Below the pieces are notes generated by a model, which was not told the DNA's origin, made no database searches, and saw only the letters and a program-made list of their open reading frames with translations. 64,000 nucleotides of DNA from Acidobacteriaceae bacterium TAA 166 (GTDB lineage Bacteria > Acidobacteriota > Terriglobia > Terriglobales > Acidobacteriaceae): the NCBI GenBank assembly GCA_000421065.1, contig ATWD01000001.1, forward strand, positions 2,286,001 through 2,350,000, read 5' to 3'. A program made the translations under genes and the position numbers. Positions within the stretch are counted from its first letter, which is position 1; each line of letters starts with the position of its first letter. Shown here in pieces: positions 7,071 through 28,097 of the stretch.

Positions 7071-7148
7071 TCGGTCTTTGAGCAGACCCTCGCGGCTGTC
7101 TTTGGCGAAGCACCGCGAGGGCCTAGAGATCGACAACCCAAAGGCCGA
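7071..7148 (+). promoter_or_regulatory. Structured leader motif, copy 1 (sigma gene 1)
   Basis: The inner stem CCCTCGCGG/CCGCGAGGG (7087-7095 with 7113-7121) encloses the loop CTGTCTTTGGCGAAGCA (7096-7112). GAGATCGA follows at 7126-7133. An outer stem TCGGTCTTTG/CAAAGGCCGA (7071-7080 with 7139-7148; one G-U pair) closes the element. The same layout occurs at four other sites. The sigma start codon is about 120 bases downstream. Confidence 0.65.
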
Positions 7149-7266
7149 CGATTAGCTCTTGAGTATAGGGTAGCTGGTCCGAGGATTCAAGGAACCGCTA
7201 CGTGTTGTTCTGCCATGAAAATCCGTCCCGCTCTCTGCTCCACCGAGTAGCAGAATACGGTACGGC

Positions 7267-7833
7267 ATGAGCGACCTTGCCAATCCCATCTATTCAACAC
7301 AGGTTGTCTTCGATACGGAAGACGGCACGCTCGACTTTGAGAGCCTGTATGCCGCGCATCGTCCAAAGCTGATTCACTCGCTTATCCGGCTTGGCGTGGA
7401 TGCCGTCGAAGCGGAAGACATTACGCAGGATGTCTTTCTTCGCACCATTGATCCGGCGAGGCATCATGCGCCAGTCCGCAATTTCTTCGGATGGCTCACG
7501 ACCTCCGCGAAGAACCTTGCAATCACACTTCACCATCGCGGACAACGCGAGGTATTGGCCGCACCTGTCTATTGGAAGCAATGGGAAGATACCTTGCCCG
7601 ATCCGGCGCAGGACGTGCTTACCTCTCTTGAAGAATGGCAGCGAAAAGACGAGATGCTACGGGCGCTCTCCAAGCTGACTTACCGTGAGCAGCAATGTAT
7701 CCTGATGCGCGGCCAGGGAAAGACCTTTCAGGAGACTGCCGACTCTCTTGGGATCACCTTACGCAAGGCGATGTACGCTAGTGAGACGGCGCTCAGGAAG
7801 TTGCAGCGTGAGTTGCAGGGTCCGGCCCTCTGA
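7267..7833 (+). CDS. ECF-type RNA polymerase sigma factor (cassette 1)
   Basis: A 188-residue sigma factor. Region 2 spans about 24-92 (SLYAAHRPKLIHSLI...AEDITQDVFLRT...FFGWLTTSAKNLAI). Region 4 spans about 128-183 (LSKLTYREQQCILMRGQGKTFQETADSLGITLRKAMYASETAL), a helix-turn-helix for the -35 element. It is followed after 5 bases by a zinc-finger anti-sigma gene and then by a TonB receptor operon. By analogy to cell-surface signalling it would switch on receptor genes when released. A close paralogue lies at 25824-26441. The ribosome binding site is weak. Confidence 0.88.
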   Translation: MSDLANPIYSTQVVFDTEDGTLDFESLYAAHRPKLIHSLIRLGVDAVEAEDITQDVFLRTIDPARHHAPVRNFFGWLTTSAKNLAITLHHRGQREVLAAPVYWKQWEDTLPDPAQDVLTSLEEWQRKDEMLRALSKLTYREQQCILMRGQGKTFQETADSLGITLRKAMYASETALRKLQRELQGPAL

Positions 7834-7838
7834 TAGCG

Positions 7839-9284
7839 ATGCGTTCGGAACATCCAGAGTTACAAGAACTGATATTGTGGCAGAGCGGCGAGCTGGCCTC
7901 GGACAAGAGCGCCATCGTCGAGGCGCATCTGGACAACTGTGAGACATGCCGAAACAAGGTCGAGAGTATGCGCTCGATCTACAGCCGAGCCGCACAGATA
8001 GATCCCGCCGCCCTCCGTCGTAAGAAGTCTCCTGGCAAAGTCTTCATGGCGGGCACATCGGCTGTGGTCATTGCCGCGCTCGTGTTTATGAGTGTGACCG
8101 AATGGGTGCCGGAAGCCCGCGCCGATTCGTTACTGGCAAAGGCAGTGCAGCAAGAGAACGCCGAGGCTCCGCATGGATTGCGTGTGCGTAGCGGAACAGA
8201 GAGCTGCCTGGTCAACCCGCAGTGGGCGGTCTATGACAGGGCCAGCAATCAGACTTTTTGCAACACCGTCTCCGCGAATCTTCGCTCGGCAGGATGGGGA
8301 TGGAATGATCTTCTCTCGGCAAAGAGCTTCGAGCACTGGAGAACATCGCTCAAGAAAAAGCATGATTCCATCCATAAGCTCGCGGATACAACTGAAGTAA
8401 GAACCGATACGGGGGAAGGCACGATCCGCGAAGCGGCAATTCGTCTGCGCTCCGCCGATTACCAACCTGTATCGGCCCGCTTTCAGTTTGCAGGGGCTAA
8501 TGGGCAGGACTCCGAGATCGAGGTCGAGGAAGGCTCTCCGTCGGACGTGCCGATGGAGACGGCCCGCTCCATTCCAGCTCCCACGAGAGCGCCGCAACCT
8601 CACACACCACAGCAGCCCGCGATTCTTGATGCTCTGGACGAGGCCGAGGCGAGAACACGGCTTGCGCTCCATCAAGCGGGCGCGGATACAAATGTGTTGC
8701 TTGCCGTCGAGAGACAGGCGGGTGCAATTAAGGTGTGGGGGGTTGTGCCGACGCAGACAACAAAATCTGTCGTGCTCGCGGCACTCGAAAACATCCCATC
8801 TATACAGCTCTCCGTGTTGACAGAGGCAGAGCAGGAACAGTCTCATGCTCCGTTGCCGTGGCAGTCGTTCCACGGCGATGCTGTGCCACTGGCGGCGAGC
8901 CAGATGCAAAGCCTGTTTCAGAATGATCCTCAAGAACATGAGCGATTTCTGAGCGGCATCGACACCACGACGCGCCGCTTAGTGGGAGAAGCCCGGACAC
9001 GAGATGCGCTCCTGCGTCTTGCGATGCGGATTGATTACTCAGAGTATGCAAAACCGCTTCAGGAAGCGGCGACCGAGATCGCAGCTCAGATGGCGGTCGA
9101 TATGACATCGCTTGCCCAACAGTTGCAGCCGTTGGTCCCGCTGACAGTGAAACGCCGCGCCTTGACCTTTCAGCAGGCGGAACAGCTCTACACGTTGACA
9201 CACGAGGTCGCGTTCATGAGCAGGAACCAGGGCGGACTCTCCCTCGATGATGCGCTCTCCCGGATCAAGGCACTTCTGGCCTGA
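7839..9284 (+). CDS. Membrane anti-sigma factor with N-terminal zinc finger (cassette 1)
   Basis: A 481-residue protein. HLDNCETC (about 30-37) is the H-x3-C-x2-C zinc-binding anti-sigma motif. One membrane segment follows (about 69-88, FMAGTSAVVIAALVFMSV), then about 390 residues predicted outside the membrane with no recognised domain. Topology fits a single-pass protein that holds the sigma factor in the cytoplasm and senses in the periplasm. The large C-terminal part is unlike FecR and is shared only with the paralogue at 26456-27964, including KVWGVVPT near the middle. It is the likely place for the signal input, perhaps the receptor. Confidence 0.75.
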   Translation: MRSEHPELQELILWQSGELASDKSAIVEAHLDNCETCRNKVESMRSIYSRAAQIDPAALRRKKSPGKVFMAGTSAVVIAALVFMSVTEWVPEARADSLLAKAVQQENAEAPHGLRVRSGTESCLVNPQWAVYDRASNQTFCNTVSANLRSAGWGWNDLLSAKSFEHWRTSLKKKHDSIHKLADTTEVRTDTGEGTIREAAIRLRSADYQPVSARFQFAGANGQDSEIEVEEGSPSDVPMETARSIPAPTRAPQPHTPQQPAILDALDEAEARTRLALHQAGADTNVLLAVERQAGAIKVWGVVPTQTTKSVVLAALENIPSIQLSVLTEAEQEQSHAPLPWQSFHGDAVPLAASQMQSLFQNDPQEHERFLSGIDTTTRRLVGEARTRDALLRLAMRIDYSEYAKPLQEAATEIAAQMAVDMTSLAQQLQPLVPLTVKRRALTFQQAEQLYTLTHEVAFMSRNQGGLSLDDALSRIKALLA

Positions 9285-9353
9285 ATCGGCCAGCTTCACC
9301 AAGAGTTATCCACAGGTTTGTAGAAACGTCGTCGCTCATTGGTCTTAACAGTA

Positions 9354-9374
9354 GAGGCGCAAAAAATGCGCCTC
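9354..9374 (+). other. Extra hairpin before leader copy 2
   Basis: GAGGCGCA-AAAAA-TGCGCCTC, a perfect 8-bp stem with an A-rich loop directly 5' of the leader motif of the first receptor gene. No T-run follows. The other leader copies lack it. Confidence 0.55.
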
Positions 9375-9375
9375 C

Positions 9376-9426
9376 GTGCATGGTGTGTCTTCTTTGGCGA
9401 AGCAGAACCCCATGTGCCGAGATCGA
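9376..9426 (+). promoter_or_regulatory. Structured leader motif, copy 2 (TonB receptor 1)
   Basis: The stem GTGCATGG/CCATGTGC (9376-9383 with about 9410-9417) pairs fully with two G-U pairs. The loop holds GTCTTCTTTGGCGAAGCA, and GAGATCGA follows at 9419-9426. AAAGGTG, the presumed ribosome binding site, begins 8 bases later, close enough for the fold to influence translation. Confidence 0.6.
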
Positions 9427-9448
9427 TGGATCGAAAGGTGATGATGAA

Positions 9449-12400
9449 ATGGACTTCCCGGATCGGAAGCGTGCGGCTGTCCCGGCACGTTTTGCAAGTC
9501 TCTACTCTCTTAGCGTTCTGTTGTTCTTCCTCATGGTCTGTGGTTCGGTTGCTAACGCGCAGAGCGCCGCGCTCGGCGGTGTCGTCATGGACCCTTCCTC
9601 CGCGATGGTTCGTGATGCCCAGGTCACAGTGACGAACCAACGGACTTCCGTCGCTCTGCATACCAAGACCAACGGCTCGGGCCTGTACAGCGTTCCGTTC
9701 ATCCAACCGGGGTTGTACACACTGGCGGTCGAAGCTCCCGGATTCAAACGCTACGAGCGCACCGGCATCACCATCGAGACCGCGCAAACCATAGCGATTG
9801 ATGTCCGGTTGCAGCTCGGGGAAACGTCTCAGTCGGTAACGGTGGATGGCAGCGGTGCTCAACTCAATATGACTGACGCTACCGTGAACACAGTTATTAA
9901 TCGGCAGTTTGTCGAGAATATGCCGCTAAGTGGACGCAGCTTCCAGCCCCTCTTGACACTGATTCCCGGTGTGAATCAGGTGCCGATTCCCCAAGGGACA
10001 GGCAACGGATACAGTGGCGAATTTACAGTCAATGGACAGCGCTCCGAGGCTAACTACTTCACAGTTGATGGGGTAGGTGTGAATACAGGAATTTATACCA
10101 GCAACTCCGTGGGTTCCGGGACGGGATTTGCGGGTACAACTCTCCAAGAAACCGCACTTGGAACTACTCAAAGTCTTATTTCGGTTGATGCTCTCGAAGA
10201 ATTCAATGCTCAAACCTCATCGTACTCGGCGGAATATGGGCGAACCCCAGGCGGACAGTTCTCGCTTAGTAGTCGCGCTGGCACCAATAGTTTCCACGGC
10301 TCCGTATACGACTACTTCCGTAATGGCGCTACCAGTGCAAATGCGTGGTTCAACAATTATTATGACCAGCCGCGCCTCGAAGAACATCAGAACGATTTCG
10401 GCGGTACATTGGGTGGTCCGATTATCGTCCCCGGACTTTACAACGGACACGACAAGAGCTTTTTCTTCTTTTCCTACGAAGGGCTTCGCCTAAGGAATCC
10501 TGTTGCTGCCGACCTCACGGCAGTCCCATCGGTCGCGCTACGAGAAGCTGCCGCACCGGGTATCAAAGCACTAATCGAAGGTTTTCCTTTGCCCTTGGCA
10601 AATGCTGCTGACCTTGGAGCAGGTATGTCTGCTTTTACTTCTGGTTACGTCTCTCCTGGAAGCCTCGACACGTTAAGTCTGCGACTCGACGAGCACTTTG
10701 GCGAACACTTGCTTCTCTTCGGACGTATGAGCTACTCACCTTCCAGTGTTCTAACGAGATCAAGCTATAACCTTGCCAACCCGAGCAATCTTTACGGCAC
10801 CGTTGGATCAGTGACGCTAGGGGCGACCGCTACATTAAGCGCTCAAGCTTCCAACGATTTGCGCTTCAACTTCACAAGAAATAAGCAAAAAAATGTTTCC
10901 TACATTGACGATTTCGGAGGGGCCACACCGTACTCCAATTCTGTGTTGCCTGGTTTGTCGAATAGTGATGGTGCCGGGTTATATCTTTTGACAACCGCAC
11001 TCGATCCTTTTACCAATACAGTTAACTCTCGATCAAGACAACGCCAAATTAATCTCGTTGATGTTTTCAGAATCATCAAGGACAAACACTCATTGAGCTT
11101 TGGATTTGACTATCGCGGTCTCTTCAACTCGCAGAGCGTATATAGCAACTGGGAATATGCGTTTGCCTTCAGCGAACAAAGCATAACAAGTGGCAGTTTG
11201 GATGGTTCGGTACTCAAGAAGTTTGGTGCCGCTCCGCATCCCGTCTATCAAAACTATTCCGCATTTGCACAAGACAACTGGAAGGCTACGTCCCGTCTGT
11301 CGATCTCTATGGGACTCCGTTGGGAAGTGAATCCTCCTCCCACCGACTCAAGGGGCAATAATCCGTATACGGTCGATCAGGTGACGAACCTTGCGACAAC
11401 ACAGCTTGCGCCTGAGGGTACGCCGCTTTGGAAGACGACGTATGGCAATTTCGCGCCGCGCCTTGGCGTGGCATGGCAAGCCCACCAACAACCAGGTCAC
11501 GAAACGATTGTTAGGGGCGGAGGTGGTGTCTTCTTCGATTTAGGAACGACGAATGGTTCAAATGGCTATGCTGGTCCGGGATTTATAAGCACGACGTCCA
11601 TTTCTTCTGGCCCTTTTCCATTTTCCGCACAGGACGTCCAGAATGCTCCCGCTCCAAATGCCAATCCACCCTACACGGCCGGAGTTACTGCCTACAATCC
11701 TCATTACCAACTGCCGTACACGTGGCAATGGAATTTGGCGGTGGAGCAAGCGCTTGGTACTCGTCAGTCCATGACTCTAACCTATATTGGATCTGCTGGA
11801 AAAAGACTTCCTGCCGCCAAGTTTCTTTACCCAGACCTCTTTAACAACCCATATTTTTCCGAGGGCTATGGCCTTCAACTAGGAACCAACGATGCGTCTT
11901 CGAGCTATTCGGCGCTCCAGGTTCAGTATCAGAGGACGCTGGCCAATGGGCTGCAAGCCTTAGTGAATTACACATGGTCACACTCGCTGGACGATACAAG
12001 CACCAATTCAATCGCCAATGAACTAGAGCACGCGAGTTCCGATTTCGATGTTCGCAATGCCTTCAATGCTGCTATCACCTATGACATTCCCTCCATCCAT
12101 AGCAACCGGATTATCGATGCTGCTGTGAACCATTGGAGCTTCGATACTCGGTTCACCGCCCGATCAGCAGTTCCGGTCGATATCGTGTCGAATCAAGGAA
12201 ATGACGTTGCAACTGGAATGGCTCTTAACTATCACCCCAACCGCGTTGCTGGTCAGCCTCTTTATATCCATGATTCATCTGTACCAGGAGGCAGGGTTAT
12301 TAATGCTGCGGCCTTCAGCACTCCGACAGACGCAAATGGAAATCCTTTGCCAATAGAAGGGGACGTAAGTCGAAACTACGCGCGCGGATTCGATGCTATC

Positions 12401-12664
12401 CAGAGTGACCTAGCTATACGAAGGGAGTTCCCGATACGCGAAGGTATGGGTGTACAGTTCCGCGCCGAAGCTTTCAATATGCTAAATCATCCGATTTTTG
12501 GAGCGATATATAACCAACTGAATGGGAGCCCAGACAGCACCAGTGGTGCAACGCTCTTCGGACAGGCATATCAGACACTTAATACGACACTCGGTGGACT
12601 GAATGCTCTCTATCAAAGCGGTGGTCCACGTTCTATGCAATTTACCGTGCGGCTTCATTTCTAA
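9449..12664 (+). CDS. TonB-dependent receptor with carboxypeptidase-regulatory-like domain (cassette 1, receptor A)
   Basis: An outer-membrane receptor of 1071 residues. I choose ATG 9449, not an earlier in-frame ATG, because AAAGGTG precedes it and it gives a proper signal peptide (MDFPDRKRAAVPARFASLYS, hydrophobic core, ANAQS). The same AAAGGTGAYGAT context precedes the paralogue at 28122. QSAALGGVVMDPSSAMVRDA starts the CarboxypepD_reg-like domain. A plug region (FTVNGQRSEANYFTVDGVGV) and a long beta-barrel ending in RSMQFTVRLHF follow. Such Oar-like receptors import large ligands with energy from TonB. Its partners, an ECF sigma pair, a PepSY protein and an Rrf2 regulator, point to iron or siderophore uptake by inference. 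Confidence 0.85.
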   Translation: MDFPDRKRAAVPARFASLYSLSVLLFFLMVCGSVANAQSAALGGVVMDPSSAMVRDAQVTVTNQRTSVALHTKTNGSGLYSVPFIQPGLYTLAVEAPGFKRYERTGITIETAQTIAIDVRLQLGETSQSVTVDGSGAQLNMTDATVNTVINRQFVENMPLSGRSFQPLLTLIPGVNQVPIPQGTGNGYSGEFTVNGQRSEANYFTVDGVGVNTGIYTSNSVGSGTGFAGTTLQETALGTTQSLISVDALEEFNAQTSSYSAEYGRTPGGQFSLSSRAGTNSFHGSVYDYFRNGATSANAWFNNYYDQPRLEEHQNDFGGTLGGPIIVPGLYNGHDKSFFFFSYEGLRLRNPVAADLTAVPSVALREAAAPGIKALIEGFPLPLANAADLGAGMSAFTSGYVSPGSLDTLSLRLDEHFGEHLLLFGRMSYSPSSVLTRSSYNLANPSNLYGTVGSVTLGATATLSAQASNDLRFNFTRNKQKNVSYIDDFGGATPYSNSVLPGLSNSDGAGLYLLTTALDPFTNTVNSRSRQRQINLVDVFRIIKDKHSLSFGFDYRGLFNSQSVYSNWEYAFAFSEQSITSGSLDGSVLKKFGAAPHPVYQNYSAFAQDNWKATSRLSISMGLRWEVNPPPTDSRGNNPYTVDQVTNLATTQLAPEGTPLWKTTYGNFAPRLGVAWQAHQQPGHETIVRGGGGVFFDLGTTNGSNGYAGPGFISTTSISSGPFPFSAQDVQNAPAPNANPPYTAGVTAYNPHYQLPYTWQWNLAVEQALGTRQSMTLTYIGSAGKRLPAAKFLYPDLFNNPYFSEGYGLQLGTNDASSSYSALQVQYQRTLANGLQALVNYTWSHSLDDTSTNSIANELEHASSDFDVRNAFNAAITYDIPSIHSNRIIDAAVNHWSFDTRFTARSAVPVDIVSNQGNDVATGMALNYHPNRVAGQPLYIHDSSVPGGRVINAAAFSTPTDANGNPLPIEGDVSRNYARGFDAIQSDLAIRREFPIREGMGVQFRAEAFNMLNHPIFGAIYNQLNGSPDSTSGATLFGQAYQTLNTTLGGLNALYQSGGPRSMQFTVRLHF

Positions 12665-12678
12665 TAGAGGGAGGTCGC

Positions 12679-13854
12679 ATGTTGAGTGCAAAGCGTGTCC
12701 GGCTCTGGTATCGCATTCATAAATGGACAAGCCTAGTCTGCACGGCATTTTTACTAATGTCGTGTATGACTGGTTTGCCCTTGATCTTTGCCAACGAAAT
12801 TGACCATCTGACAGACCATCATGTAAGGGCTGCTGCTCAGCCCGGCAGTGGCAAATCTGCAAGTCTCGATACCCTTGTAGCGATAGGACGCCGTTCTTAC
12901 CCAAACCTAAAAGTGCTCTCGATTGGATGGGATGACGATGAGCCTCGCATCTTTTTGGACATGGCCCCCAGCTTCAATCCAAAGCCGGGTGAGGATCATA
13001 CCTTGATCTTCGACGCTCATACGGGAAGGCTCCTCGAAGAACCGCATGACACGAACAGCTTTATGAGTGTTGTGACCATGCTGCATATCGAAATGTACGC
13101 CGGACTGCCCGGAGAACTCTTTCTCGGCTGCATGGCGATCCTCTTTGTTATTGCGCTTGTATCCGGTGCTGTGGTCTATGGCCCATTTATGAGAAGGCTG
13201 AACTTTGGCACCATCCGTAAGGGGAAATCTCTACGGCTGAAATGGTTTGACCTCCATAATCTTCTAGGAATCGTCACTCTCACTTGGGGGTTGGTTGTGG
13301 GGTCCACGGGCGCGATGAATACGTTGTCGGGTCCACTGTTTGATGTATGGCGCAGCCAGGAAATGCCATATCTTCTTGCTCCATATCGGAACAAGCCCGC
13401 ATTACGCCAGTTGGGATCAGTAGATGCCGCCGTAGAAAAGGCTAAGGCTGCTTTGCCAAACATGGATGCTACGTCAGTGGTGTTCCCCAATGACCTGTTT
13501 GGTAGCCCGCGTCACTACCTGATATGGACTCACGGCAAGACGTCGGTCATGTCCCGACTTTTCACTCCTGTTCTCATTGATGCTCAGACAGGACAACTTA
13601 CCGCAGCGAAAGGACTGCCTTGGTATTTGCGAACGCTGGAAGTCTCGCGCCCTCTGCATTTTGGAGATTACGGCGGAATCCCATTGAAGATCATTTGGGC
13701 GCTCTTCGATATGGCGCTAATTACGGTGCTGCTGAGTGGCGTTTATCTCTGGCTCTCTCGCCGCAAAACGCCGGTCGAAGATGAGCTGAATCGGCTGGTA
13801 AGCCTGGAGGAGTCATCGACCGAATCTCGCAGTGCAGGAGTGCTTGCGCGATGA
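12679..13854 (+). CDS. PepSY-associated transmembrane protein (PiuB-like), cassette 1
   Basis: A 391-residue inner-membrane protein of the PepSY_TM family (COG3182). Four membrane segments are visible: 19-40, about 150-172, about 195-220 and about 345-365. Conserved His positions occur at RIHKWTS, LHIEMYAG, DLHNLLG and LHFGDYGG. PepSY_TM proteins next to siderophore receptors are thought to reduce ferric iron from siderophores in the periplasm, with heme bound by such His residues; that role is inferred here. It follows the receptor by 14 bases and overlaps the next small gene (ATGA). Confidence 0.85.
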   Translation: MLSAKRVRLWYRIHKWTSLVCTAFLLMSCMTGLPLIFANEIDHLTDHHVRAAAQPGSGKSASLDTLVAIGRRSYPNLKVLSIGWDDDEPRIFLDMAPSFNPKPGEDHTLIFDAHTGRLLEEPHDTNSFMSVVTMLHIEMYAGLPGELFLGCMAILFVIALVSGAVVYGPFMRRLNFGTIRKGKSLRLKWFDLHNLLGIVTLTWGLVVGSTGAMNTLSGPLFDVWRSQEMPYLLAPYRNKPALRQLGSVDAAVEKAKAALPNMDATSVVFPNDLFGSPRHYLIWTHGKTSVMSRLFTPVLIDAQTGQLTAAKGLPWYLRTLEVSRPLHFGDYGGIPLKIIWALFDMALITVLLSGVYLWLSRRKTPVEDELNRLVSLEESSTESRSAGVLAR

Positions 13855-14066
13855 GCCATCCGTTTCCGTTCAGCAAAGTTTACGGGGCAGCGATAGTGCT
13901 TGCGGCCATCACCCTGTACGGCTTGCTTTCCGCCTTGTTCGGAGATGGTGTGTGGGACGAGATTGCATGTGTATTTCTTGCCATCCCGCTTGCGGTGATC
14001 GTGTGGAAGTACAGCCGCGCTCGCAAAACCCCATCGCATCGTGTGGAGCGGTTGAATCGCGGTTAG
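13851..14066 (+). CDS. Small two-helix membrane protein beside PepSY (cassette 1)
   Basis: A 71-residue protein with two hydrophobic segments (about 10-29, GAAIVLAAITLYGLLSALFG, and about 37-52) separated by DGVWDEI, and a basic C-terminus. It overlaps the PepSY gene by four bases, and an almost identical partner occurs after the second PepSY gene (32488-32673), so the two are probably one functional unit. Small hydrophobic proteins next to PepSY_TM reductases are common in iron-uptake operons; no specific function is known to me. Confidence 0.7.
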   Translation: MSHPFPFSKVYGAAIVLAAITLYGLLSALFGDGVWDEIACVFLAIPLAVIVWKYSRARKTPSHRVERLNRG

Positions 14067-14077
14067 CAGCATAAACA

Positions 14078-14128
14078 GGATTTCCGTTTCAGTCTGTGGC
14101 GAAGCAGAGGCGGAAATCCAGAGATCGA
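14078..14128 (+). promoter_or_regulatory. Structured leader motif, copy 3 (TonB receptor B)
   Basis: A perfect 9-bp stem GGATTTCCG/CGGAAATCC (14078-14086 with 14111-14119) encloses a loop with GTCTGTGGCGAAGCAG, in which CTG/CAG can also pair. GAGATCGA lies at 14121-14128, one base after the stem. The receptor start codon is 17 bases downstream, so the fold lies right at the translation start. Confidence 0.7.
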
Positions 14129-14145
14129 AATTTGCGGGATGGACG

Positions 14146-17034
14146 ATGAGGAAACTTGTTTATCTGCTCTGCCTATGGATGGGAGTAGCGATGGCGGTGG
14201 CACAGCAACCAACAGGAGCGATTCACGGCGCGATCTTGGATGCGACGGGCGCGGTGATCCCCGGAGCGGCGGTGACGGTGAACGGGCCGGATAACTGGAC
14301 GCGCTCAGTTGTTTCCGACGCGGAAGGCAGATACATTCTGCGCGGTCTTTCTCCCGGCGAATACTCGGTACGCTCCGACGCTACGGGATTCATGCAGCCG
14401 CATGTGGCGCATGTTCATGTTCGCAACGATGCCGTTGCTTTGAACATCACCTTGCAGGTTGAAGGGCACGAAGAGACAGTCACCGTCCAGGGCAATGACC
14501 GCATAACCGTTGGCACCGACCCCGGACAGAACGCCAGCGCAACGCATGTCACTGGTAAAGGTCTCGATTCACTTTCCAATGACCCGGATGATTTCGTGAC
14601 CGACATACAAACTCTCGCCGGACCTTCGGCTGGACTGGAGGGAGCGCAGGTTTACATCGACGGCCTCACGGCGGGCGATGCTGTTCTTCCCGACAAAGCG
14701 GCCATTCAGGAAATCCGCATCAATCAGAATCCCTTTGCGCCGGAGTTCGACTCGATGGGGTTGGGCAGAGTGGAGCTGCTGACAAAGGCAGGAACGGATG
14801 CGTACCACGCGACGGCATTTTTCAACTATGGCGATGCGGTGTTCAATTCTCGCAATCCGTATGCACCCGAAAAGCCGCCGTTCACGCTGAAGCAGTACGG
14901 AGGCAGTGTCAGCGGTCCGATCAACAAAAAGCTGTCCTTTTTCTTCGACCTCAACAAGCGCGACATCGGCAATGGCGCAGTCATCAACGCTGTTACGCTC
15001 GATTCCGGTACGCTCGCCGTTGTCGATCCCTTTACCCAAGTGTTCAGCAGTCCGTTTCGCTTCCTACGAATCAGTCCCCGCGTCGATTACAGGATCAACC
15101 CGAAACATACGCTAATGCTGCGTTACGGCTACACAAAGAATGATTATGACCACTATGGCGTAGGGAGCTTTGATCTTGTCTCGCGGGGTGCCGATGCTCA
15201 TCTTCGAGAGCACGCCGTGCAAGTAACGGAAACGGCGATCCTCTCACCGAAGATTGTTAGCGAGACGAACTTTCTGTTTCTGCATCAGTACCACACGCAT
15301 CAGGCCGACACGACCGGCCCGACGCTCGAAGTTGAAAATGCCTTCAGCGGCGGCCCCGATCCTGAGACATTCTCCAGCTATCTGCACCGTCACTATCAGG
15401 TGCAGAACATCACGACGTTCGGAGAGAATAATCACACCATCCGCATTGGGGCACGGCTCCGCGCCGTCTCGATGGTGGATACGTCCTATGAGAACTTCGG
15501 GGGGACATTTACCTTTGGTGGCGCGTTCGCTCCCATTCTCGATGCGGACAACAATCCCACCATGCTCGGAGTTGTCTGCAATCAAGACGGAACAGCGCAG
15601 AGCGGATGCACGACGATCAGCTCTATCGAGCAGTACCGGCGCACGCTGGTTTTTCAAAAGCAGGGCCTTGGTGCAAGCGCCATTCGGCAGCTCGGCGGCG
15701 GTGCAACGCAGTTCTCCCTGAATGCAGGGCAGCCCGTTACGGATGTTGGCGGAATCGACCTTGGTGTTTTCATTGGGGACGACTGGCGCGTCCGCCCCAA
15801 TCTCACCCTTAGCTATGGCCTTCGCTATGAGACACAGACCAACATCCGCGATCATTCGGACTTCGCACCGCGTCTCGGCTTCGCATGGAACCCGAAGTTT
15901 GCCGGTAAGGAATCGAAAACAGTCATCCGAGGCGGTCTCGGCCTCTTCTATGACCGCTTTTCGGAGTTGAACGTCACGACAGCGCAGCGATACAACGGCA
16001 TCGCGCAACAACAGTACCTCATCTCCAATCCCAACTTTTTTCCGAACATCCCCACGCCAGCGACTCTTGCGCCGCTTTCGCAAAGCCAGGTCATTCAAAC
16101 CATCAGCCCGTCGATGCGAGCACCATATCTGATTCAGAGTGCCATCAGCGTAGAGCGGCAGTTGCCGGGCAACACAACCCTTGCACTCAACTACGTCAAT
16201 ACACACGGCCTGCATCAGTTCCGCTCGCGCAACATCAATGCGCCATTGCCGGGAACATATAGCGGCACGACGGGCAGCGGCATATTCCCGCATCCAGGGC
16301 AGGGACCAATCTACGAGATGGAGTCCGCAGGACTCTTTAATCAGAATGAGTTCATTGCTAACGTCAACACGCGAGTAAGCAAGAACGTCTCGCTGTTCAG
16401 CTCCTATACGCTCAACTATGCCCGGAGCAACACAGATGGCTTGAGCACCTTTCCAGCGAATCAGTATGACTTCGCGGGAGAGTACGGCCCTGCCGAGAAT
16501 GACATCCGGCACCGCTTCTCCCTTGGCGGCTCTGCCTCGCCGCTGTGGAAGCTCGAATTTGCTCCGCTCATCGTGCTTCAAAGCGGAGCACCTTTCAACG
16601 TCACCACGAGCCAGGACATCTACGGAACCGGCCTGCTGAATGCGCGTCCGGGTTTCGCTTCCAGCGCCTCTGTCCCCGGTGTTATCTCCACACGGTACGG
16701 CTTGCTCAATCCCAACCCTGTTGCGGGCGAGAAGATTGTTCCACGTAACTACGGCAGAAGTCCGGGGCAATTCATCGTGAACCTGCGAGTGGCGCGAGAC
16801 TTCAACTTTGGCGAGAAGAACCCGACAGAGAAGGGATTGTTCAGGAGACAGTACACGTTGACCACTGCTGCCTCAGCCCGCAACCTCCTGAATCATGTCA
16901 ATCCGGGGCCGACCATCGGCAACATCAACTCGCCCTTGTTTGGTGAGTCGAATGAGATTGCCGTGGGGACAGGTGCTTATCAGTTCAGCGCCAACAACCG
17001 GCGCTTGGAGTTTGAGGTGAGATTGGGATTTTAG
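14146..17034 (+). CDS. TonB-dependent receptor with carboxypeptidase-regulatory-like domain (cassette 1, receptor B)
   Basis: A 962-residue receptor with signal peptide MRKLVYLLCLWMGVAMAVAQ, a CarboxypepD_reg-like domain (GAIHGAILDATGAVIPGAAV onward), a plug-like region (VYIDGLTAGDAVLPDKAAI; INQNPFAPEFDSMGLGRVEL) and a barrel ending in RLEFEVRLGF. It is clearly diverged from receptors A at 9449 and 28122 and has no counterpart in cassette 2. It has its own copy of the leader motif and runs 15 bases ahead of the Rrf2 gene. Its ligand may differ from that of receptor A. Confidence 0.85.
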   Translation: MRKLVYLLCLWMGVAMAVAQQPTGAIHGAILDATGAVIPGAAVTVNGPDNWTRSVVSDAEGRYILRGLSPGEYSVRSDATGFMQPHVAHVHVRNDAVALNITLQVEGHEETVTVQGNDRITVGTDPGQNASATHVTGKGLDSLSNDPDDFVTDIQTLAGPSAGLEGAQVYIDGLTAGDAVLPDKAAIQEIRINQNPFAPEFDSMGLGRVELLTKAGTDAYHATAFFNYGDAVFNSRNPYAPEKPPFTLKQYGGSVSGPINKKLSFFFDLNKRDIGNGAVINAVTLDSGTLAVVDPFTQVFSSPFRFLRISPRVDYRINPKHTLMLRYGYTKNDYDHYGVGSFDLVSRGADAHLREHAVQVTETAILSPKIVSETNFLFLHQYHTHQADTTGPTLEVENAFSGGPDPETFSSYLHRHYQVQNITTFGENNHTIRIGARLRAVSMVDTSYENFGGTFTFGGAFAPILDADNNPTMLGVVCNQDGTAQSGCTTISSIEQYRRTLVFQKQGLGASAIRQLGGGATQFSLNAGQPVTDVGGIDLGVFIGDDWRVRPNLTLSYGLRYETQTNIRDHSDFAPRLGFAWNPKFAGKESKTVIRGGLGLFYDRFSELNVTTAQRYNGIAQQQYLISNPNFFPNIPTPATLAPLSQSQVIQTISPSMRAPYLIQSAISVERQLPGNTTLALNYVNTHGLHQFRSRNINAPLPGTYSGTTGSGIFPHPGQGPIYEMESAGLFNQNEFIANVNTRVSKNVSLFSSYTLNYARSNTDGLSTFPANQYDFAGEYGPAENDIRHRFSLGGSASPLWKLEFAPLIVLQSGAPFNVTTSQDIYGTGLLNARPGFASSASVPGVISTRYGLLNPNPVAGEKIVPRNYGRSPGQFIVNLRVARDFNFGEKNPTEKGLFRRQYTLTTAASARNLLNHVNPGPTIGNINSPLFGESNEIAVGTGAYQFSANNRRLEFEVRLGF

Positions 17035-17049
17035 ATATAGGAGCAAACT

Positions 17050-17502
17050 ATGTTGAAACTAACCAAACGCGCTGACTACGGCATGATGGCGATGCGCTAT
17101 CTGGCCGAACACGCCAACGAAAGCAGACCACACTCCGCAAGAGACATTTCTGACGCCTACAACATCCCGTTGCCGGTTCTGGCGAAGACCTTGCAGGCGC
17201 TCGCTAAAGCAGAATTGGTTGCGTCACAACATGGAGCATTGGGCGGTTATGCACTCGCTCGACCAGCAACGACAATCAGCACGCTTGAGGTGATTGCAGC
17301 CTTCGATGGCTCTCCGGTTATTACCAGTTGCACGACCGTTCACGGCGACTGCGAGATGGCGAGTCACTGCAAGGTGAAAGAGCCATTGCAGCGGGTGAAT
17401 GACGGAATCAGAATGCTTTTGACCCGTATCAGCATAGCGGAACTGGCCGAGCCAGCGGAGAATGCCCGTCATACGGACGAACTGGTGAGGCTTACCTGCT
17501 AG
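17050..17502 (+). CDS. Rrf2-family regulator with three-Cys cluster motif (cassette 1)
   Basis: A 150-residue Rrf2-type repressor resembling the SUF-system regulator subgroup. The N-terminal winged helix is clear (LTKRADYGMMAMRYLAEH...DAYNIPLPVLAKTLQALAKA...GALGGYALARP). Cys 94, 101 and 107 (SCTTVHGDCEMASHC) match the Fe-S ligands of IscR-like proteins, so it probably senses Fe-S or iron status. The paralogue at 32680 keeps the same three Cys. Being last in both cassettes suggests it controls them; the target sites are not identified. AGGAG precedes the ATG. Confidence 0.88.
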   Translation: MLKLTKRADYGMMAMRYLAEHANESRPHSARDISDAYNIPLPVLAKTLQALAKAELVASQHGALGGYALARPATTISTLEVIAAFDGSPVITSCTTVHGDCEMASHCKVKEPLQRVNDGIRMLLTRISIAELAEPAENARHTDELVRLTC

Positions 17503-18202: not shown

Positions 18203-20121
18203 GTCGCGGTAGGGATACGGCTTTCGCCGTACCCCCCGCACAGATCCGTACGGGCGGATTTCCCGCATACGGCTCTTACCTCAGGTGGTGACGCGCAAGC
18301 GGCGCGAAGGATAAGGACGGCAGATATGGGCCGGAGGAAGCCAGCGACGGATGAGCCGTTTCATTCGCTCCCACTTGACGCGACCATGCTGGCTTCGCCT
18401 GCACAGAGCGCGATGCCAGAGGTTCGTCACCGTGTAACGAAAGTGGGCCAGAGCATGCCGGTTGCCCGGCACTCCGAAGTATCGGATATGCCCGCCCACG
18501 ACGGACTTCAGCCACTTGCCAACTTCTGGAACAGGGTCATGCATACGCCGCCACAAGCCGATCTTTACCTCTTGCAGCTTGGCCCGCATACGCTTACGAA
18601 TCGTCTGCCGAAGCACCATGAACCGTCCCTTCTTCGTCTTTCCGCAGATGTGCGTAAAGCCGAGGAAGTCGAAGGTCTCTGGCTTACCCAGACCAGCACG
18701 CTTTCGGTTCTTTGCCGCATGGCGTCCGAACTCGATAAGCCGCGTCTTCTCCGGGTGCAGCTCCAGTTGGAACTTCTCCATTCGTTCTTTCAGTTCCGAC
18801 CAGAACCGTTCGGCCTCGTCTTTGTACTCGAATCCAACCACGATGTCGTCGGCATAACGCACCACGATCACATCGCCGTGCGCCCGCTTCTTACGCCATG
18901 CCTGAACCCAGAGATCGAAGACGTAATGGAGGTAGATATTCGCCAGCAGTGGCGATGCACTTCCGCCCTGCGGCGAGCCTGCTTCCACGAAGGTTCGCTT
19001 GCCCTTTTCCAGCACGCCCGCGTTCAGCCATTTCTGGATGAGACGCACCACGCGCCGGTCCGCTATCCGATGCTGGAGGAACCGGACCAGCCACTCGTGC
19101 GACAGCCTGTCGAAGAAGCTGCGCACGTCCAGGTCCAGCACCCAGTTCACACGTCGCTCATGGAGTCCACAGAACAAGGCGTCCAGCGCTTTATGCTGGT
19201 GTCGCTTTGGTCGGAACCCATAAGAGAAGCCGAGGAAGTCGGTTTCGTAGATGTTGTTCAGTACCTCCACCGTCGCTCTCTGGACGAGTTTGTCTTCGAG
19301 CGCCGGAACGCCGAGCGGTCGCTGCCGCCCGTCCGCCTTCGGAATGTACACCCTACGCACCGGCTTGGCCCGGTATGCTCCGCGCTTCAGTCTATGGGAG
19401 AGGTTCTGGAGGTTCGCCTCAAGAGCCTCGCCGTAGTGCCGCCATGTCTCCCCGTCCACACCGGCTGCAGCGTGCCTCTTCAACTGCAAGTAGGCGAACC
19501 GCAGAGTGTCGATCCGGTAGACATGATGCATCAGAGCAGTGAACCTTGCATCCTTGTTCGATTTTGCCGCTTGTCGTATCTGCTCCAGCTCACTTGGCGC
19601 GCTGATCCGGCTCAGAGTCCGGGGCGCGTTTTGCTGGCTCAGATTCCCCTTGGTCAGACCCCTTCCCTCCATCTCCTCCGCCACCATGACTCTGGCTTTG
19701 TTCGGAGACTTCCCCGGTACTATGGGTCTGTCCGACTTCCCGTGTTCGTTCATCATCGGCTCCAGTCCTTAAACTTCCCGATGCGTCCCGAGAACACTGG
19801 CCGCTCTCGGGTGAACCCGGGATCTCTCTATTTCCGCGCAAAGTGTGTCCCTACATGCCAGGGTCATAGACCGCGCAGGACTCCTGCCAAGCTCGCCATA
19901 CTGCTTGTCAGGATGTTGCCTTCCGCGTTGTGTCAAGGCGTCGGCGTCCTGAAGTTAGGGATATTTCGCGGCTCAATAGCCTGGCCTGTAGTTCCTCCTG
20001 TCTACGCTTCGTACATGGCCTTGCGACCATATCCGCAAGACTCGGAGCCGGTGTGGCTGGCTAGGCCCTCACCGTACGACTCTTGCATTCGCTACACCTT
20101 GCCGGTTCCGTGCTTGCGCAC
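18203..20121 (-). mobile_element. Group II intron with encoded reverse transcriptase
   Basis: On the minus strand the element starts with GTGCGC at 20121, a good 5' end (GUGYG). About 365 bases of ribozyme domains precede the reverse transcriptase ORF. Downstream of the ORF is a typical domain V: GAGCCGTATGCGGGAAATCC, then GCCCGTACGG, at about 18240-18276. Domain VI (TACGGCGAAAGCCGTATCCC) follows, ending CTACCGCGAC at 18203. Ends are set from these signatures and could be off by a few bases. The intron lies in the gap between the small gene at 17797 and the mobilisation genes and interrupts no recognised gene. Confidence 0.75.
18281..19756 (-). CDS. ltrA: Group II intron reverse transcriptase/maturase
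   Basis: A 491-residue reverse transcriptase. Seen: RT motif around AAAGVDGETW (98-105), RPLGVPALEDKLVQRA (146-161), FLGFSYGFRPKR (174-185), DLDVRSFFD (208-216), SPQGGSASPLLANIYLH (261-277) and catalytic YADD (301-304), followed by a thumb/maturase region ending KRLIRRWLPPAHICRPYPSR. No HNH endonuclease motif is seen at the C-terminus, so mobility would rely on nicked or single-stranded targets. It acts as maturase for splicing its own intron and copies intron RNA into DNA. A long frame on the opposite strand is only its shadow. Confidence 0.92.
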   Translation of the reverse strand: MMNEHGKSDRPIVPGKSPNKARVMVAEEMEGRGLTKGNLSQQNAPRTLSRISAPSELEQIRQAAKSNKDARFTALMHHVYRIDTLRFAYLQLKRHAAAGVDGETWRHYGEALEANLQNLSHRLKRGAYRAKPVRRVYIPKADGRQRPLGVPALEDKLVQRATVEVLNNIYETDFLGFSYGFRPKRHQHKALDALFCGLHERRVNWVLDLDVRSFFDRLSHEWLVRFLQHRIADRRVVRLIQKWLNAGVLEKGKRTFVEAGSPQGGSASPLLANIYLHYVFDLWVQAWRKKRAHGDVIVVRYADDIVVGFEYKDEAERFWSELKERMEKFQLELHPEKTRLIEFGRHAAKNRKRAGLGKPETFDFLGFTHICGKTKKGRFMVLRQTIRKRMRAKLQEVKIGLWRRMHDPVPEVGKWLKSVVGGHIRYFGVPGNRHALAHFRYTVTNLWHRALCRRSQHGRVKWERMKRLIRRWLPPAHICRPYPSRRLRVTT

Positions 20122-20161
20122 GGGATTGACGCAACGACACGTCATCCCCAAATGGGATGCT

Positions 20162-20310: not shown

Positions 20311-20388
20311 ATAGACAAGGGCTTCCAGCATCCCGGCGCTTGACGGCCAATTTGCATGGGTGCAAGCTGTTTTTGAGGCGGGTTCCCC

Positions 20389-22799: not shown

Positions 22800-22823
22800 G
22801 GCATCTAAAGGAGCAGAGCGCAC

Positions 22824-25583: not shown

Positions 25584-25654
25584 TCTACTTGCGCCGGATA
25601 GTGGGAGCGTCGCCCCACATATTGTGGCGGAGAAGTTGAATATAAGACCGAAAG

Positions 25655-25676
25655 TGTCGTATTTTAAGTCTATCGA
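25655..25676 (+). promoter_or_regulatory. Conserved block upstream of sigma gene 2 (probable promoter)
   Basis: Matches 20 of 22 bases of the block before sigma gene 1 (TGTCGTATTTTAAGTCTATC plus GA). It lies 15 bases 5' of leader copy 4, the same spacing as in cassette 1. The rest of 25584-25654 shows nothing further. Confidence 0.5.
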
Positions 25677-25690
25677 CGTGAGTAGGTTTT

Positions 25691-25776
25691 TCGATCTTGG
25701 AACAGGCCCCTGCGGCTGTCTTTTGGCGAAGCACCGCAGAGGCCCGGAGATCGACAACCCAAAGGCTGACGACTGA
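25691..25776 (+). promoter_or_regulatory. Structured leader motif, copy 4 (sigma gene 2)
   Basis: The inner stem 25705-25715 with 25734-25744 pairs at 10 of 11 positions around the loop CTGTCTTTTGGCGAAGCA (25716-25733); GAGATCGA is at 25747-25754. The outer stem (TCGATCTTGG with CCAAAGGCTGA) keeps pairing with one bulge and one mismatch, although several bases differ from copy 1, including compensating changes. The sigma start is about 50 bases downstream. Confidence 0.62.
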
Positions 25777-25823
25777 GCGAGTATTGGATGCGGCAGCCAT
25801 AGTTGCAAGAAAGGCACTTCTGT

Positions 25824-26441
25824 ATGGCTGGCGGCATTCTTTCCTGGCGAACAGTGATGGGCGAATCTTCCATCGAGGATGGGTTTGCCGATTCTATCGC
25901 TGCTGAAAGAGCCATCACCCCTCCCGACACGCGCCTGCTTGAACTCGAAACTACATATATCCTGCGTCGTCCTGATGTCGTTCGCTCCTTAGTGAAATAT
26001 GGCGTGGATTTTATCGAAGCCGAAGACATCACGCAGGAGGTATTTCTCCGCACACTGGATAGACCACAGCAGCAGAATCCGCCCGACAATCTCTTTAGCT
26101 GGCTGCTCACCTGTGCTCGCAATCTCGCAGTAGACCGTTACCGGCATCGCCGTAAGGAAATCGCGGTTCCGGCTGCTGTGTGGAAGCAATGGGAGAAGGA
26201 GATGGCAGACCCTAAAGTAGATACTGAAGCGTCTGTCCTTGAAGAAGACCGCTACAACCGCATGATGAATGCCATCTCGCGGTTGAGCGAGCAGGAACAG
26301 CAGTGTCTCGCTTTGCGGAGTCAGGGTGTAAGCTTCCGTGAAATTGCTACCATTCTGGATATGTCTCTGCGGCAAGCCGCTTATATCACCGATGTTGCCG
26401 TGGATAAGCTGCGTCGAAGACTGCATTCTACTTCCCGGTAA
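25824..26441 (+). CDS. ECF-type RNA polymerase sigma factor (cassette 2)
   Basis: A 205-residue paralogue of the factor at 7267. Region 2: ETTYILRRPDVVRSLVKYGV...AEDITQEVFLRT...LFSWLLTCARNLAVDRYRHRR. Region 4: ISRLSEQEQQCLALRSQGVSFREIATILDMSLRQAAYI. I choose ATG 25824, preceded at 9 bases by AGAAAGG; a TTG at 25803 lacks a site, and ATG 25857 is also possible. It is followed after 14 bases by its anti-sigma. Region 4 differs enough from the first copy that the two may recognise overlapping but not identical promoters. Confidence 0.85.
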   Translation: MAGGILSWRTVMGESSIEDGFADSIAAERAITPPDTRLLELETTYILRRPDVVRSLVKYGVDFIEAEDITQEVFLRTLDRPQQQNPPDNLFSWLLTCARNLAVDRYRHRRKEIAVPAAVWKQWEKEMADPKVDTEASVLEEDRYNRMMNAISRLSEQEQQCLALRSQGVSFREIATILDMSLRQAAYITDVAVDKLRRRLHSTSR

Positions 26442-26455
26442 TTCATAATTTGTTT

Positions 26456-27964
26456 GTGACGAATGAGCATCCGGCACCGGAAGAATTGTTGCTGTGGCAA
26501 AGTGGCGAACTCGACACGCCAGAGGCCGAAGCGATTCAGGCCCATGTCTCACATTGCCCCCAATGCCGCAAACGATTGGAAAAGCACGCGCAGACCTATG
26601 AAGAAGTCGCATGGGTAAGTGACCGTGCCGCGCATCGCAGGATGCGAGCGGCCATGACAGCGCGAGTCCGCAGAAGATTCGCGTTGCCGCCGACAATGGC
26701 AGCGAGCGTTGCGGCTGTGTTGATCGTGGCTCTGGTATTGTTCACAATGGATCTCACACCCTCGGCACGCGCCGACACTCTACTCAATAAGGCTGCGTGG
26801 CAGCAATCAGAAGAACAGCAAGAACATACTTCTATTCTGCTTCGCTCCGAAGGGCACGCTTGCGCGGTGAGCACGAATTTCCAGCTTGTCTCATTAGGTG
26901 ATTCAGGGAACTCCTCTTGTAAGAGCATGACTGCTCAGTTGCACCGCGTCGGCTGGACAGGCAACGATGGGCTTTCTGCCAGCAGCTTCCGCGCATGGCG
27001 CAAATCGCTGCCCCACAAAACCGATTCCATCCGCAAAGTAACAGATGCGACGGAGATTCAAACTGAGACGAACGATAGCCCAATCCGCAAGGCGGTGCTG
27101 AGGCTACGCGATTCCGACGATCATCCAGTCACAGCTCGTTACGAGTTTGCAGCGGAAGGCAATGAACCCGCCGCAATTATCGAAGTAGGAGAGCAGTCCG
27201 GCCTGCCTCCTGTGCTGACTGCCCACTCTTCCGACGTGCCTGTGCCCAAGCCCGCCGAACTGCCGTCACATTCTCCCGCTGTGGCCGTCATCAATCCTCT
27301 GGACGATGCGGAGGCCCATGCCTGGCTTGCGCTCTCTCACGCCGGGCTTACCAGTGATGTTCTTGTTGCGGTGAATCGTCAGCCTGATGCCGTGAAAGTT
27401 TGGGGCGTGGTGCCGACAGAGCAGGCGAAAGCTGATTTGACCAGCGCATTGCAGAGCCAGCCGGAGATGCAGGTGGATATAACCACCGATGGAGCGCAGG
27501 AGTCGCCATCATCCTCTCTGCCCTGGACGGCATGGCGCGGAAACATCCCGCCATTGGCAGCAGATCAGTTGCAGGCACAATTTCCTAACGACCCGCAGGC
27601 CAGCCAGCAGTTTTTGAATGACATGGACATGCTGACCCGTCGCCTGGTCGCGGAAACCAGAAGCCGGGAAGCCATGCTGACACTGGCTGACCGGATGCCA
27701 GCGTCAGCGTTAGCAGCTTCTCTGCGCGATGATACTGCAAAGCTCGATACGTCGATTAGGACTGACTTGTCCAGCCTCGCCACAAGGCTAGGCCCTCTCT
27801 TGGGTTCGGGCCTGACACCGGCACATCGCCTTTCCTATGAAGAGGCCACACGGCTTTATGCGCTTGTGCATGAGCTGTTTTTCATGGGCAGGAGCCAGGA
27901 TTCTTTAGACCGGGATAGCGCGTGGGCGCAGACCCGGCGACTGCTCTCCCAACGAGCCTCATAA
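26456..27964 (+). CDS. Membrane anti-sigma factor with N-terminal zinc finger (cassette 2)
   Basis: A 502-residue paralogue of the protein at 7839. HVSHCPQC (about 29-36) is the zinc-binding H-x3-C-x2-C. One membrane segment (about 82-100, MAASVAAVLIVALVLFTMDL) separates it from a large periplasmic part that shares KVWGVVPTEQAKADL and a C-terminal helical region with the first copy. I choose GTG 26456, because it aligns exactly with the start of the paralogue (VTNEHP against MRSEHP); a TTG six bases earlier is open too. Confidence 0.73.
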   Translation: MTNEHPAPEELLLWQSGELDTPEAEAIQAHVSHCPQCRKRLEKHAQTYEEVAWVSDRAAHRRMRAAMTARVRRRFALPPTMAASVAAVLIVALVLFTMDLTPSARADTLLNKAAWQQSEEQQEHTSILLRSEGHACAVSTNFQLVSLGDSGNSSCKSMTAQLHRVGWTGNDGLSASSFRAWRKSLPHKTDSIRKVTDATEIQTETNDSPIRKAVLRLRDSDDHPVTARYEFAAEGNEPAAIIEVGEQSGLPPVLTAHSSDVPVPKPAELPSHSPAVAVINPLDDAEAHAWLALSHAGLTSDVLVAVNRQPDAVKVWGVVPTEQAKADLTSALQSQPEMQVDITTDGAQESPSSSLPWTAWRGNIPPLAADQLQAQFPNDPQASQQFLNDMDMLTRRLVAETRSREAMLTLADRMPASALAASLRDDTAKLDTSIRTDLSSLATRLGPLLGSGLTPAHRLSYEEATRLYALVHELFFMGRSQDSLDRDSAWAQTRRLLSQRAS

Positions 27965-27983
27965 TCTTCCCGAAAAAAATTAC

Positions 27984-28007
27984 GGAAAACACCAGCCGCC
28001 AGTCGTC
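27984..28007 (+). promoter_or_regulatory. Possible ECF-type promoter before receptor A2
   Basis: GGAA (27984-27987), 16 bases, CGTC (28004-28007): the generic ECF pattern of GGAAC-like -35 and CGTC -10 elements, 34 bases before the leader motif. Only this receptor has a convincing pair, so it is a weak call. Confidence 0.3.
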
Positions 28008-28040
28008 GAGACATATAGGGGAAGAATTTTTGTTTTCTTC

Positions 28041-28097
28041 CCTGGGATATGCGAAACGGGCAGTCCCGCGAAGCGGCCCGCCTTGCATCGAGATCGA
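28041..28097 (+). promoter_or_regulatory. Structured leader motif, copy 5 (TonB receptor A2)
   Basis: The most diverged copy. The stem CGGGC/GCCCG (28057-28061 with 28076-28080), extended by ATGC/GCAT across an internal loop, encloses AGTCCCGCGAAGCG, which keeps GTC and GCGAAGC. GAGATCGA is at 28090-28097. The receptor start, with CGAAAGGTGA before it, is 24 bases downstream. Confidence 0.5.

Follow-up and report, generated by a model that had tools for sequence, protein, structure and literature searches.

A covarying leader RNA upstream of iron-uptake genes in Acidobacteriota may add a translational layer to the iron-starvation regulon

The window analyzed here is a stretch of 64,000 nucleotides from Acidobacteriaceae bacterium TAA 166 (contig ATWD01000001.1, positions 2,286,001 to 2,350,000). 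It contains ECF sigma factor, TonB receptor and PepSY_TM genes together with five copies of a structured leader motif (Table 1). The mobile element in the window also encodes its own Rrf2-family regulator, which among the named NCBIfam families is matched best by the SUF regulator suf_reg_Xantho (1.2e-28, below its cut-off). The leader motif occurs in two forms. The copies that precede the sigma factor genes (copies 1 and 4) are of the full form, and those that precede the receptor genes (copies 2, 3 and 5) are of the short form.

Table 1. Leader copies, operator-like palindromes and neighboring genes in the 64-kb window
Feature	Positions	Strand	Evidence and remarks
Operator-like palindrome GAC-N7-GTC, upstream of copy 1	7026..7038	+	Regex scan
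Copy 1, full form	7081..7197	+	P1/P2 at 7081-7133, GAGATCGA, CAACCCAAAGGCCGACGA tail, P3; R2 E=2.7e-16; R3 (full-length) E=6.0e-21; followed by ECF sigma gene
ECF sigma factor	7267..7833	+	Pfam Sigma70_r2/r4; NCBIfam sigma70-ECF
481-aa ORF in anti-sigma position	7839..9284	+	No Pfam or NCBIfam match
Copy 2, short form (P1/P2 and GAGATCGA)	9372..9426	+	R2 E=8.1e-5; TonB receptor ATG (~9449) 22 nt on
TonB-dependent receptor	9380..12664 (ORF; likely start ~9449)	+	Pfam OMP_b-brl_4, CarboxypepD_reg, Plug
PepSY_TM protein	12679..13854	+	Pfam E=1.1e-58
Copy 3, short form	14075..14128	+	R2 E=5.6e-10; second receptor start (14146) 17 nt on
TonB-type receptor	14146..17034	+	Pfam OMP_b-brl_4, CarboxypepD_reg
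Rrf2-family regulator	17050..17502	+	Pfam Rrf2 3.8e-30; NCBIfam rrf2_super above cut-off
Operator-like palindrome GAC-N7-GTC, upstream of copy 4	25646..25658	+	Regex scan
Copy 4, full form	25701..25813	+	R2 E=2.9e-17; R3 E=1.1e-24; heads ECF sigma gene with start ATGGCTGGC (~25824)
ECF sigma factor	25803..26441 (ORF; likely start ~25824)	+	Pfam
zf-HC2 anti-sigma-like protein	26450..27964	+	Pfam
Copy 5, short form, diverged loop GUCCCGCGAAGC	28046..28097	+	R2 E=2.0e-4; receptor start (28122) 24 nt on
TonB-dependent receptor	28122..31295	+	Pfam
PepSY_TM protein	31292..32491	+	Pfam

A refined covariance model (R2) retrieves the five copies with E-values between 2.9e-17 and 2.0e-4 and finds no sixth, the next match in the window having an E-value of 0.66. 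The training alignment of R2 held three of the window copies; copy 2 (9372) and copy 5 (28046) lay outside it and are independent. Copy 5, whose loop has diverged, was missed by the first covariance model at E<=1. The window has four occurrences of the exact pattern GGCGAAGC-N8-20-GAGATCGA, and 100 shuffles yield none. An initial annotation of this DNA had listed five copies, each heading a sigma factor or TonB receptor gene, with 17-25 bases to the receptor start codon and with none before the chromosomal receptors. Direct reading and the R2 search recover all five copies in these gene contexts, the receptor distances fall within that range, and the chromosomal receptor at 47757-50732 has no copy. 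The annotation had also described compensating changes in an outer stem of the two sigma copies, where direct reading finds only a one-sided change from A-U to G.U. This stem (GAUCUU/GAGAUC), assessed by eye, is missing from most of the other copies listed and was rejected as a general feature, being confined to a subgroup of the sigma copies.

The full form is ordered as an outer stem (P1), a mini-helix (P2), a tail, a hairpin (P3), the ribosome-binding site and the start codon. P1 is a stem of approximately 8-12 pairs that is free in sequence. It encloses the conserved GUCUUUUGGCGAAGC, which is closed by P2 (CUU/AAG; some families have CUC/GAG instead, or a helix of greater length). P2 hardly varies, with two both-side cells in the 119-sequence alignment, and is thus weakly tested as a helix. 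P1 is followed by (GAG)AUCGR, and the full form runs on through the near-invariant tail AUCGACAACCCGAAGGCUGRCGA into P3. P3 shows both-side changes in all seven pairs, with 72.6% of cells paired among 119 matches to the full-length model. Among full-form copies, only 33% show a stable fold after the tail (z<-1.5); the figure is 39% for short-form copies and 7% for control segments. The short forms of the window (copies 2, 3 and 5) have neither the conserved tail nor a second hairpin (z of +0.3 to +1.0). Pairing of the loop with the tail as a pseudoknot (UCUU/GAGA or UUGGCG/CGACAA) was considered and is kept as a lead only, given that the coupling between loop and tail is confounded by clade and that strict conservation leaves little variation. 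A possible compensatory change for this pseudoknot is seen in G610 only.

The stems of different copies had been described as differing in sequence while keeping their pairing, and two analyses of P1 bear this out. P1 arms pair with their own partners at a mean of -16.6 kcal/mol versus -9.4 +/- 0.34 kcal/mol with permuted partners (74 copies, 2000 permutations), with the own partner being the single best in only 22 of the 74 rows; this set retains the right arms of L103, L107, L109 and L131, which were cut early by the tail regex, and the mis-split L141-. Furthermore, 89.9% of P1 cells pair in a 68-sequence alignment, and all 11 pairs change on both sides. The covariation score of this alignment, which was fitted to the structure in a way that favors the score and in which related copies are not independent, is 0.750 versus 0.201 after shuffling and at most 0.089 for slid partners. 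Covariation thus holds up in an alignment larger than that of the window copies.

The leader RNA extends well beyond the mobile element in which it was noticed. The first covariance model, built from eight copies of the own genome, yields 25 matches at E<0.1 among the 33 listed to E=10, corresponding to about 25 copies in the genome. The exact pattern has 30 matches there, seven of which lack a matching stem by eye, are not recovered by the covariance model and are treated as chance matches. The motif had initially been assigned to one mobile element; this view is too narrow in light of the matches across the genome and the class-wide spread, and the motif is not element-specific. A second covariance model (68 copies) matches 18 of the 62 genus genomes at E<1e-4 and 63 of the 399 class genomes at E<=0.01, a threshold at which about four false genomes are expected; the class matches fall into families f1, f5, f6 and f7. 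In the phylum, the full-length model R3 has matches at E<=1e-3 in 32 of 347 genomes, nine of which belong to a single genus (g196, f60). Only G610 and G562 are counted as members outside the class, with G591 and G583 left out of the count; the weak matches L386 and L391 (g196), L385, L400 and L401 resemble protein-coding sequence by eye and were rejected. The copy in G610 (L378) precedes a TonB receptor gene with an AUGACUGGC start.

These searches provide 164 distinct copies. The first round contributes 74: it began with 77 model matches at E<=1, copy 5 was included manually, and four that were judged false by eye were removed. A later round contributes 90 distinct copies from 100 matches. 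L352 is doubtful, and the GGCGGAG variants L126, L127, L132 and L355 were retained though divergent. The regex assignment of 87 copies to the full form and 77 to the short form is approximate.

The genes downstream of the leader point to iron uptake. When the longest downstream ORFs are clustered by BLAST, 127 of the 164 copies precede genes in TonB receptor (77), S4 (22), PepSY (16), sigma factor (10) or flavodoxin (2) clusters. The remaining cases include four genes in an unknown cluster and 29 unclassified elements (21 singletons and eight without an ORF), and a few of the ORFs are in the wrong frame. Pfam agrees with the clusters for the tested receptors, sigma factors, PepSY and S4 proteins and for both flavodoxins. 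Judged from this downstream context, the copies do not lie in large numbers inside unrelated genes, an outcome that would have spoken against the initial proposal. Some full-form copies (L104, L107, L109 and L112) have no convincing downstream gene.

The combination of PepSY proteins, flavodoxin and siderophore receptors indicates iron starvation. Two of six receptor-cluster proteins tested (L298 and L113) pass the NCBIfam TonB-siderophore cut-off and L127 lies just below it; L316 gives mixed B12, heme and siderophore matches, L335 gives weak matches only, and L301 gives no match. The iron context comes mainly from family f1, to which the window belongs, and targets elsewhere include large OMP_b-brl_4 receptors (L320, L322 and L335), for which the signal may be other than iron. 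The genome encodes 65 further large receptors, namely those scored among 138 candidates, and even the nearest of them on the same strand is separated from the copy upstream of it by 7.8 kb. Therefore, the leader RNA marks a subset of the receptors.

In addition to the leader RNA, a second candidate control element is found in the DNA upstream of many copies. A regex scan for a GAC-N7-GTC core, with spacers of N6-N8 allowed, finds a palindrome in the 100 nt before 87 of 163 copies versus 42 of 1595 control windows; its consensus, derived by eye, is ATATAGGACYRAANTWGTCNTATATT. It is absent from this 100-nt region in the other 76 of the 163 copies, including the window receptor copies 2, 3 and 5. 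The accessible part of a report on RisR of Myxococcus xanthus describes an Rrf2-family [4Fe-4S] repressor that acts on isc/suf operons at a Tt/gGAC-N7-GTCCt/a operator with A/T flanks and whose subgroup includes Acidobacteria (PMC9973013). The palindromes observed here share the GAC-N7-GTC core and the A/T flanks with that operator; they differ in being accompanied by a leader RNA, none being mentioned for isc/suf in the same part of the report, and in that the identity of the regulator is inferred (PMC9973013). The operator similarity suggests that the genes are probably under separate transcription control by an Rrf2-type iron-sulfur repressor at GAC-N7-GTC. The candidate operator is kept at all ten S4 loci examined that have no leader hairpin, and therefore transcription control and the RNA are separable layers.

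The start is clear in 32 full-form copies, which have a recognized tail and an in-frame ATG/GTG preceded by a ribosome-binding-site-like stretch; here the start codon is found 60-81 nt past the tail. An ATG[AGC]C[TC]GG start, common to sigma factor, receptor and other genes, is found in 15 of the 164 copies, always 65-73 nt past the tail, and anywhere in only 7 of 640 control windows. Complementarity links the 3' strand of P3 to the opening codons of the gene behind it. Over the 32 copies, own pairing stands at -11.3 versus -9.5 +/- 0.43 for permuted partners (z=-4.1, p=0.0002), and it beats the row median in only 21 of them. When AUGGCUGG-type starts are left out, p is 0.023 (n=19). The lowest-energy fold joins the start region to the P3 3' strand in 10 of 14 folded examples, and copy 4 folds in the same manner. 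P3 wins in the folds of L301, L316, L337 and L351, and the start region becomes paired when the P3 5' strand is blocked. The 32-copy test outweighs the 14 folded examples because the latter were picked by their start motif. L299 carries a different complementary pair, GUUCGCAA/UUGCGAAC. These pairings suggest that competition between P3 and a start-codon sequestor could operate as an anti-sequestor/sequestor translational switch in the full form. The short forms of the window, which lack the conserved tail and a second hairpin, cannot operate as the full switch.

Thus, we propose, with a probability of roughly 0.7, that the motif is a leader RNA acting in cis, through which the iron-starvation regulon of Acidobacteriota gains a translational layer. 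The variable P1 would present a near-invariant apical unit, consisting of the P2-closed GUCUUUUGGCGAAGC, beside the conserved tail. Where the full form is present, a single 3' strand would be contested by P3 and a hairpin at the start codon (P4), so that the ribosome-binding site and AUG would be open when P3 is formed and closed when P4 is formed. An iron-status signal bound at the P1/P2-tail unit would decide between P3 and P4. The short form would retain mainly the recognition hairpin, usually within approximately 75 nt of the start. The stem and its covariation, P3, the complementarity of P3 and P4, the gene context and the operator enrichment are computational results; we infer that translation is the controlled step, in the direction given here, and that iron is the signal.

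As to what binds the P1/P2-tail unit, we lean slightly towards a directly bound ligand, such as Fe2+ or an iron-bearing cofactor (e.g. heme), at somewhat short of even odds; an RNA-binding protein as the binder is a strong contender that also stays below an even chance. A protein or small RNA is favored by the short forms because they lose most of the conserved nucleotides, which is unusual for a metabolite riboswitch. In the most far-reaching version, the RNA would be a new class of riboswitch that senses iron status directly (Fe2+ or an iron-bearing cofactor) and sets the translation of the whole iron-starvation regulon, including the alternative S4, across Acidobacteriota; this version is doubtful at present.

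The alternative that survives best is a site for another RNA-binding protein, such as an iron-sulfur or iron-status protein, that acts on translation or mRNA stability; we regard this reading as tentative, at about one chance in three. The unit common to both forms, an apical loop and AUCGR, is small and typical of a protein site. The loop GUC co-occurs with the tail GAG (106/20 versus 6/27 among 159 of 164 copies parsed, Fisher p=1.7e-12), an association that largely follows clades, so that the p-value overstates the number of independent events. However, the full form has a long near-invariant tail and a switch layout, which argue against this reading.

It is improbable that the element is instead a small-RNA target or itself a small RNA, with the gene-less full-form copies being trans-acting RNAs or sponges. 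Some full-form copies do run into convergent genes, such as the 3' end of an aconitase gene (L104 and L112), but most classified copies lie shortly before start codons and the covariation is contained within the element.

Could the S4 paralog encoded downstream of many copies be the regulator? S4 is an RNA-binding protein with classical autoregulation. The paralog is cysteine-free in the sequences examined at full length, whereas the four main S4 proteins examined have four cysteines in the N-terminal region. Binding of this paralog to the hairpin, both on its own transcript and on those for iron uptake, as a protein-binding leader, would fit the co-occurrence within the genus, where the paralog is present in 16 of 62 genomes. 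Of these 16, 15 carry the motif at E<1e-4, and of the 18 genomes with the motif, 15 encode the paralog; the sixteenth paralog genome (G011) has a degenerate leader directly before S4 (E=0.0189). A copy also lies upstream of 22 of 32 S4 loci, including one of another family (G134/L370). On the other hand, three genomes of the genus, G080 (one contig, 99% complete), G067 and G010, carry the motif without a paralog at E<=1e-60. Of the 26 genomes in the class sample of 399 that encode the paralog, 21 carry the motif; of the 63 that carry the motif, 42 have no paralog, among them all those of f5 and f7 and all those of f6 except G134. Moreover, no such hairpin is found at ten S4 loci (seven of genus g24, L371, L201 and L202) that have the candidate operator. 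Given these clear exceptions, the paralog was demoted from general regulator to a rival that we consider rather unlikely; S4 often belongs to the regulon without being an obligatory partner. A dispersed repeat, mobile-element passenger or DNA-level site without regulatory RNA function would agree with several copies in one mobile element and the patchy distribution (18 of 62 genomes in the genus) but is very improbable in view of arms that vary yet keep pairing, the gene association, the spread over four families of the class and to members beyond it, and zero matches in a viral-contig scan with one exact pattern.

The proposed leader RNA matches no described family in the searches made. Rfam 15 returns only group II intron models for the window at the gathering threshold. 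For eight loci of the own genome at E<=5, it returns one tRNA and three sub-threshold matches, none of which is named as a leader or riboswitch, and for six class and phylum loci at E<=2, it returns one sub-threshold RT-3 match, located inside the L335 receptor ORF. The expectation of no known family is thus upheld for the window and these 14 loci. In addition, no description of this leader RNA was found in the open-access literature, and it may be described elsewhere. Judged by the Rfam 15 scans and the open-access literature, the leader RNA appears to represent an undescribed family. Its covariation, class-wide spread, position before start codons and lack of an Rfam match give good support to the initial suggestion of a shared, unrecognized cis-acting RNA; the role as a metabolite or metal sensor or a protein-binding leader that was also proposed is a conjecture going beyond the gene context and the translational switch layout.

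Translational riboswitches that use an anti-sequestor/sequestor platform are exemplified by the cobalamin riboswitches located ahead of BtuB-type receptor genes. Similar to translational riboswitches, the RNA analyzed here is a conserved, structured leader with several copies per genome before TonB receptors and an apparent two-helix competition for the start. It differs in that it has no Rfam match where scanned, its sequestor takes in codons 2-3 and it has a short form without the platform. S4-binding operon leaders, such as the alpha-operon ribosome-binding site, are also known. The present leader shares with them its location near the start codon of an S4 gene; unlike them, it has no Rfam match in the scans, is common to many iron-uptake genes and is present without an S4 paralog. 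According to the accessible parts of two reports, zinc-responsive alternative ribosomal proteins belong to Zur regulons (PMC5912738, PMC9825181). The system here resembles these alternatives in that a cysteine-free ribosomal protein paralog is co-regulated with metal-uptake genes, and it differs from the Zur systems, as presented there, in its S4 protein, Rrf2-type operator, iron-type partners and additional leader RNA (PMC5912738, PMC9825181).

The competition between P3 and the start-codon sequestor is a testable model, and candidates for probing are at hand. Iron itself as the signal would make this RNA one of a rare kind of sensor; a protein as the reader of the signal would be a new RNA-binding iron regulator. 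A single leader RNA over receptors, sigma factors, PepSY proteins, flavodoxin and the alternative S4 would constitute a post-transcriptional iron regulon in Acidobacteriota, a large phylum of little-studied soil bacteria.

In Acidobacteriaceae, an Rrf2-type operator precedes a ribosomal protein S4 paralog that is free of cysteines, and the main S4 protein, which is of the Cys4 type, is also present. The cysteine-free S4 paralog is a candidate iron-linked alternative ribosomal protein; to our knowledge, the described cases of alternative ribosomal proteins are zinc-linked. The operator is retained upstream of S4 paralog genes that lack the leader RNA (loci L363-L369, L371, L201 and L202). For two of these genes (L365 and L367), the leader is predicted to form a different hairpin, and the ribosome-binding site is part of it.

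In genome G021, the leader copies of L122 and L146 pair a loop GAC with the tail GAGAACGA, replacing GUC with GAGAUCGA. Both copies of L111 in the same genome retain the usual combination of loop GUC and tail GAGAUCGA.

The short-form leader and the operator also precede a protein of 71-75 aa with several cysteines (MSDINVVLAER...RLCGCDCVHLS), whose L140 member has no Pfam match. Full-form copies lie upstream of genes for a cluster of 300-370 aa proteins, for which no NCBIfam match was obtained among the four members and no Pfam match in the two tested (L328 and L337). The conjugative element of the window contains a group II intron, located close to genes for a T4SS coupling protein and a TrwC relaxase.

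Coordinates of S4 paralogs, associated leader copies, downstream proteins and the intron
Feature	Locus	Position	Strand	Rfam
S4 paralog, cysteine-free	L130	1786-2409		
Further S4 paralog loci	L102, L104, L107, L109, L112, L123, L129, L146, L148, L358-L371			
Full-form copy behind S4 paralog	L104	2039-2149	-	
Full-form copy behind S4 paralog	L112	2869-3006	+	
71-75 aa protein	L140	1432-1647		
71-75 aa protein	L141		-	
71-75 aa protein	L342	near 1605		
300-370 aa cluster protein	L328	1618-2520		
300-370 aa cluster protein	L337	3345-4448	-	
300-370 aa cluster protein	L307	1635-2636		
300-370 aa cluster protein	L349	1625-2596		
Group II intron	window	18203-20083	-	RF02005, RF00029

Behind the S4 paralogs of L104 and L112, the full-form copies point towards a gene in convergent orientation, which Pfam assigns to aconitase, and approach it from its 3' end. 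If transcription reads through at these two loci, the transcript would be antisense to aconitase, an iron-sulfur enzyme.
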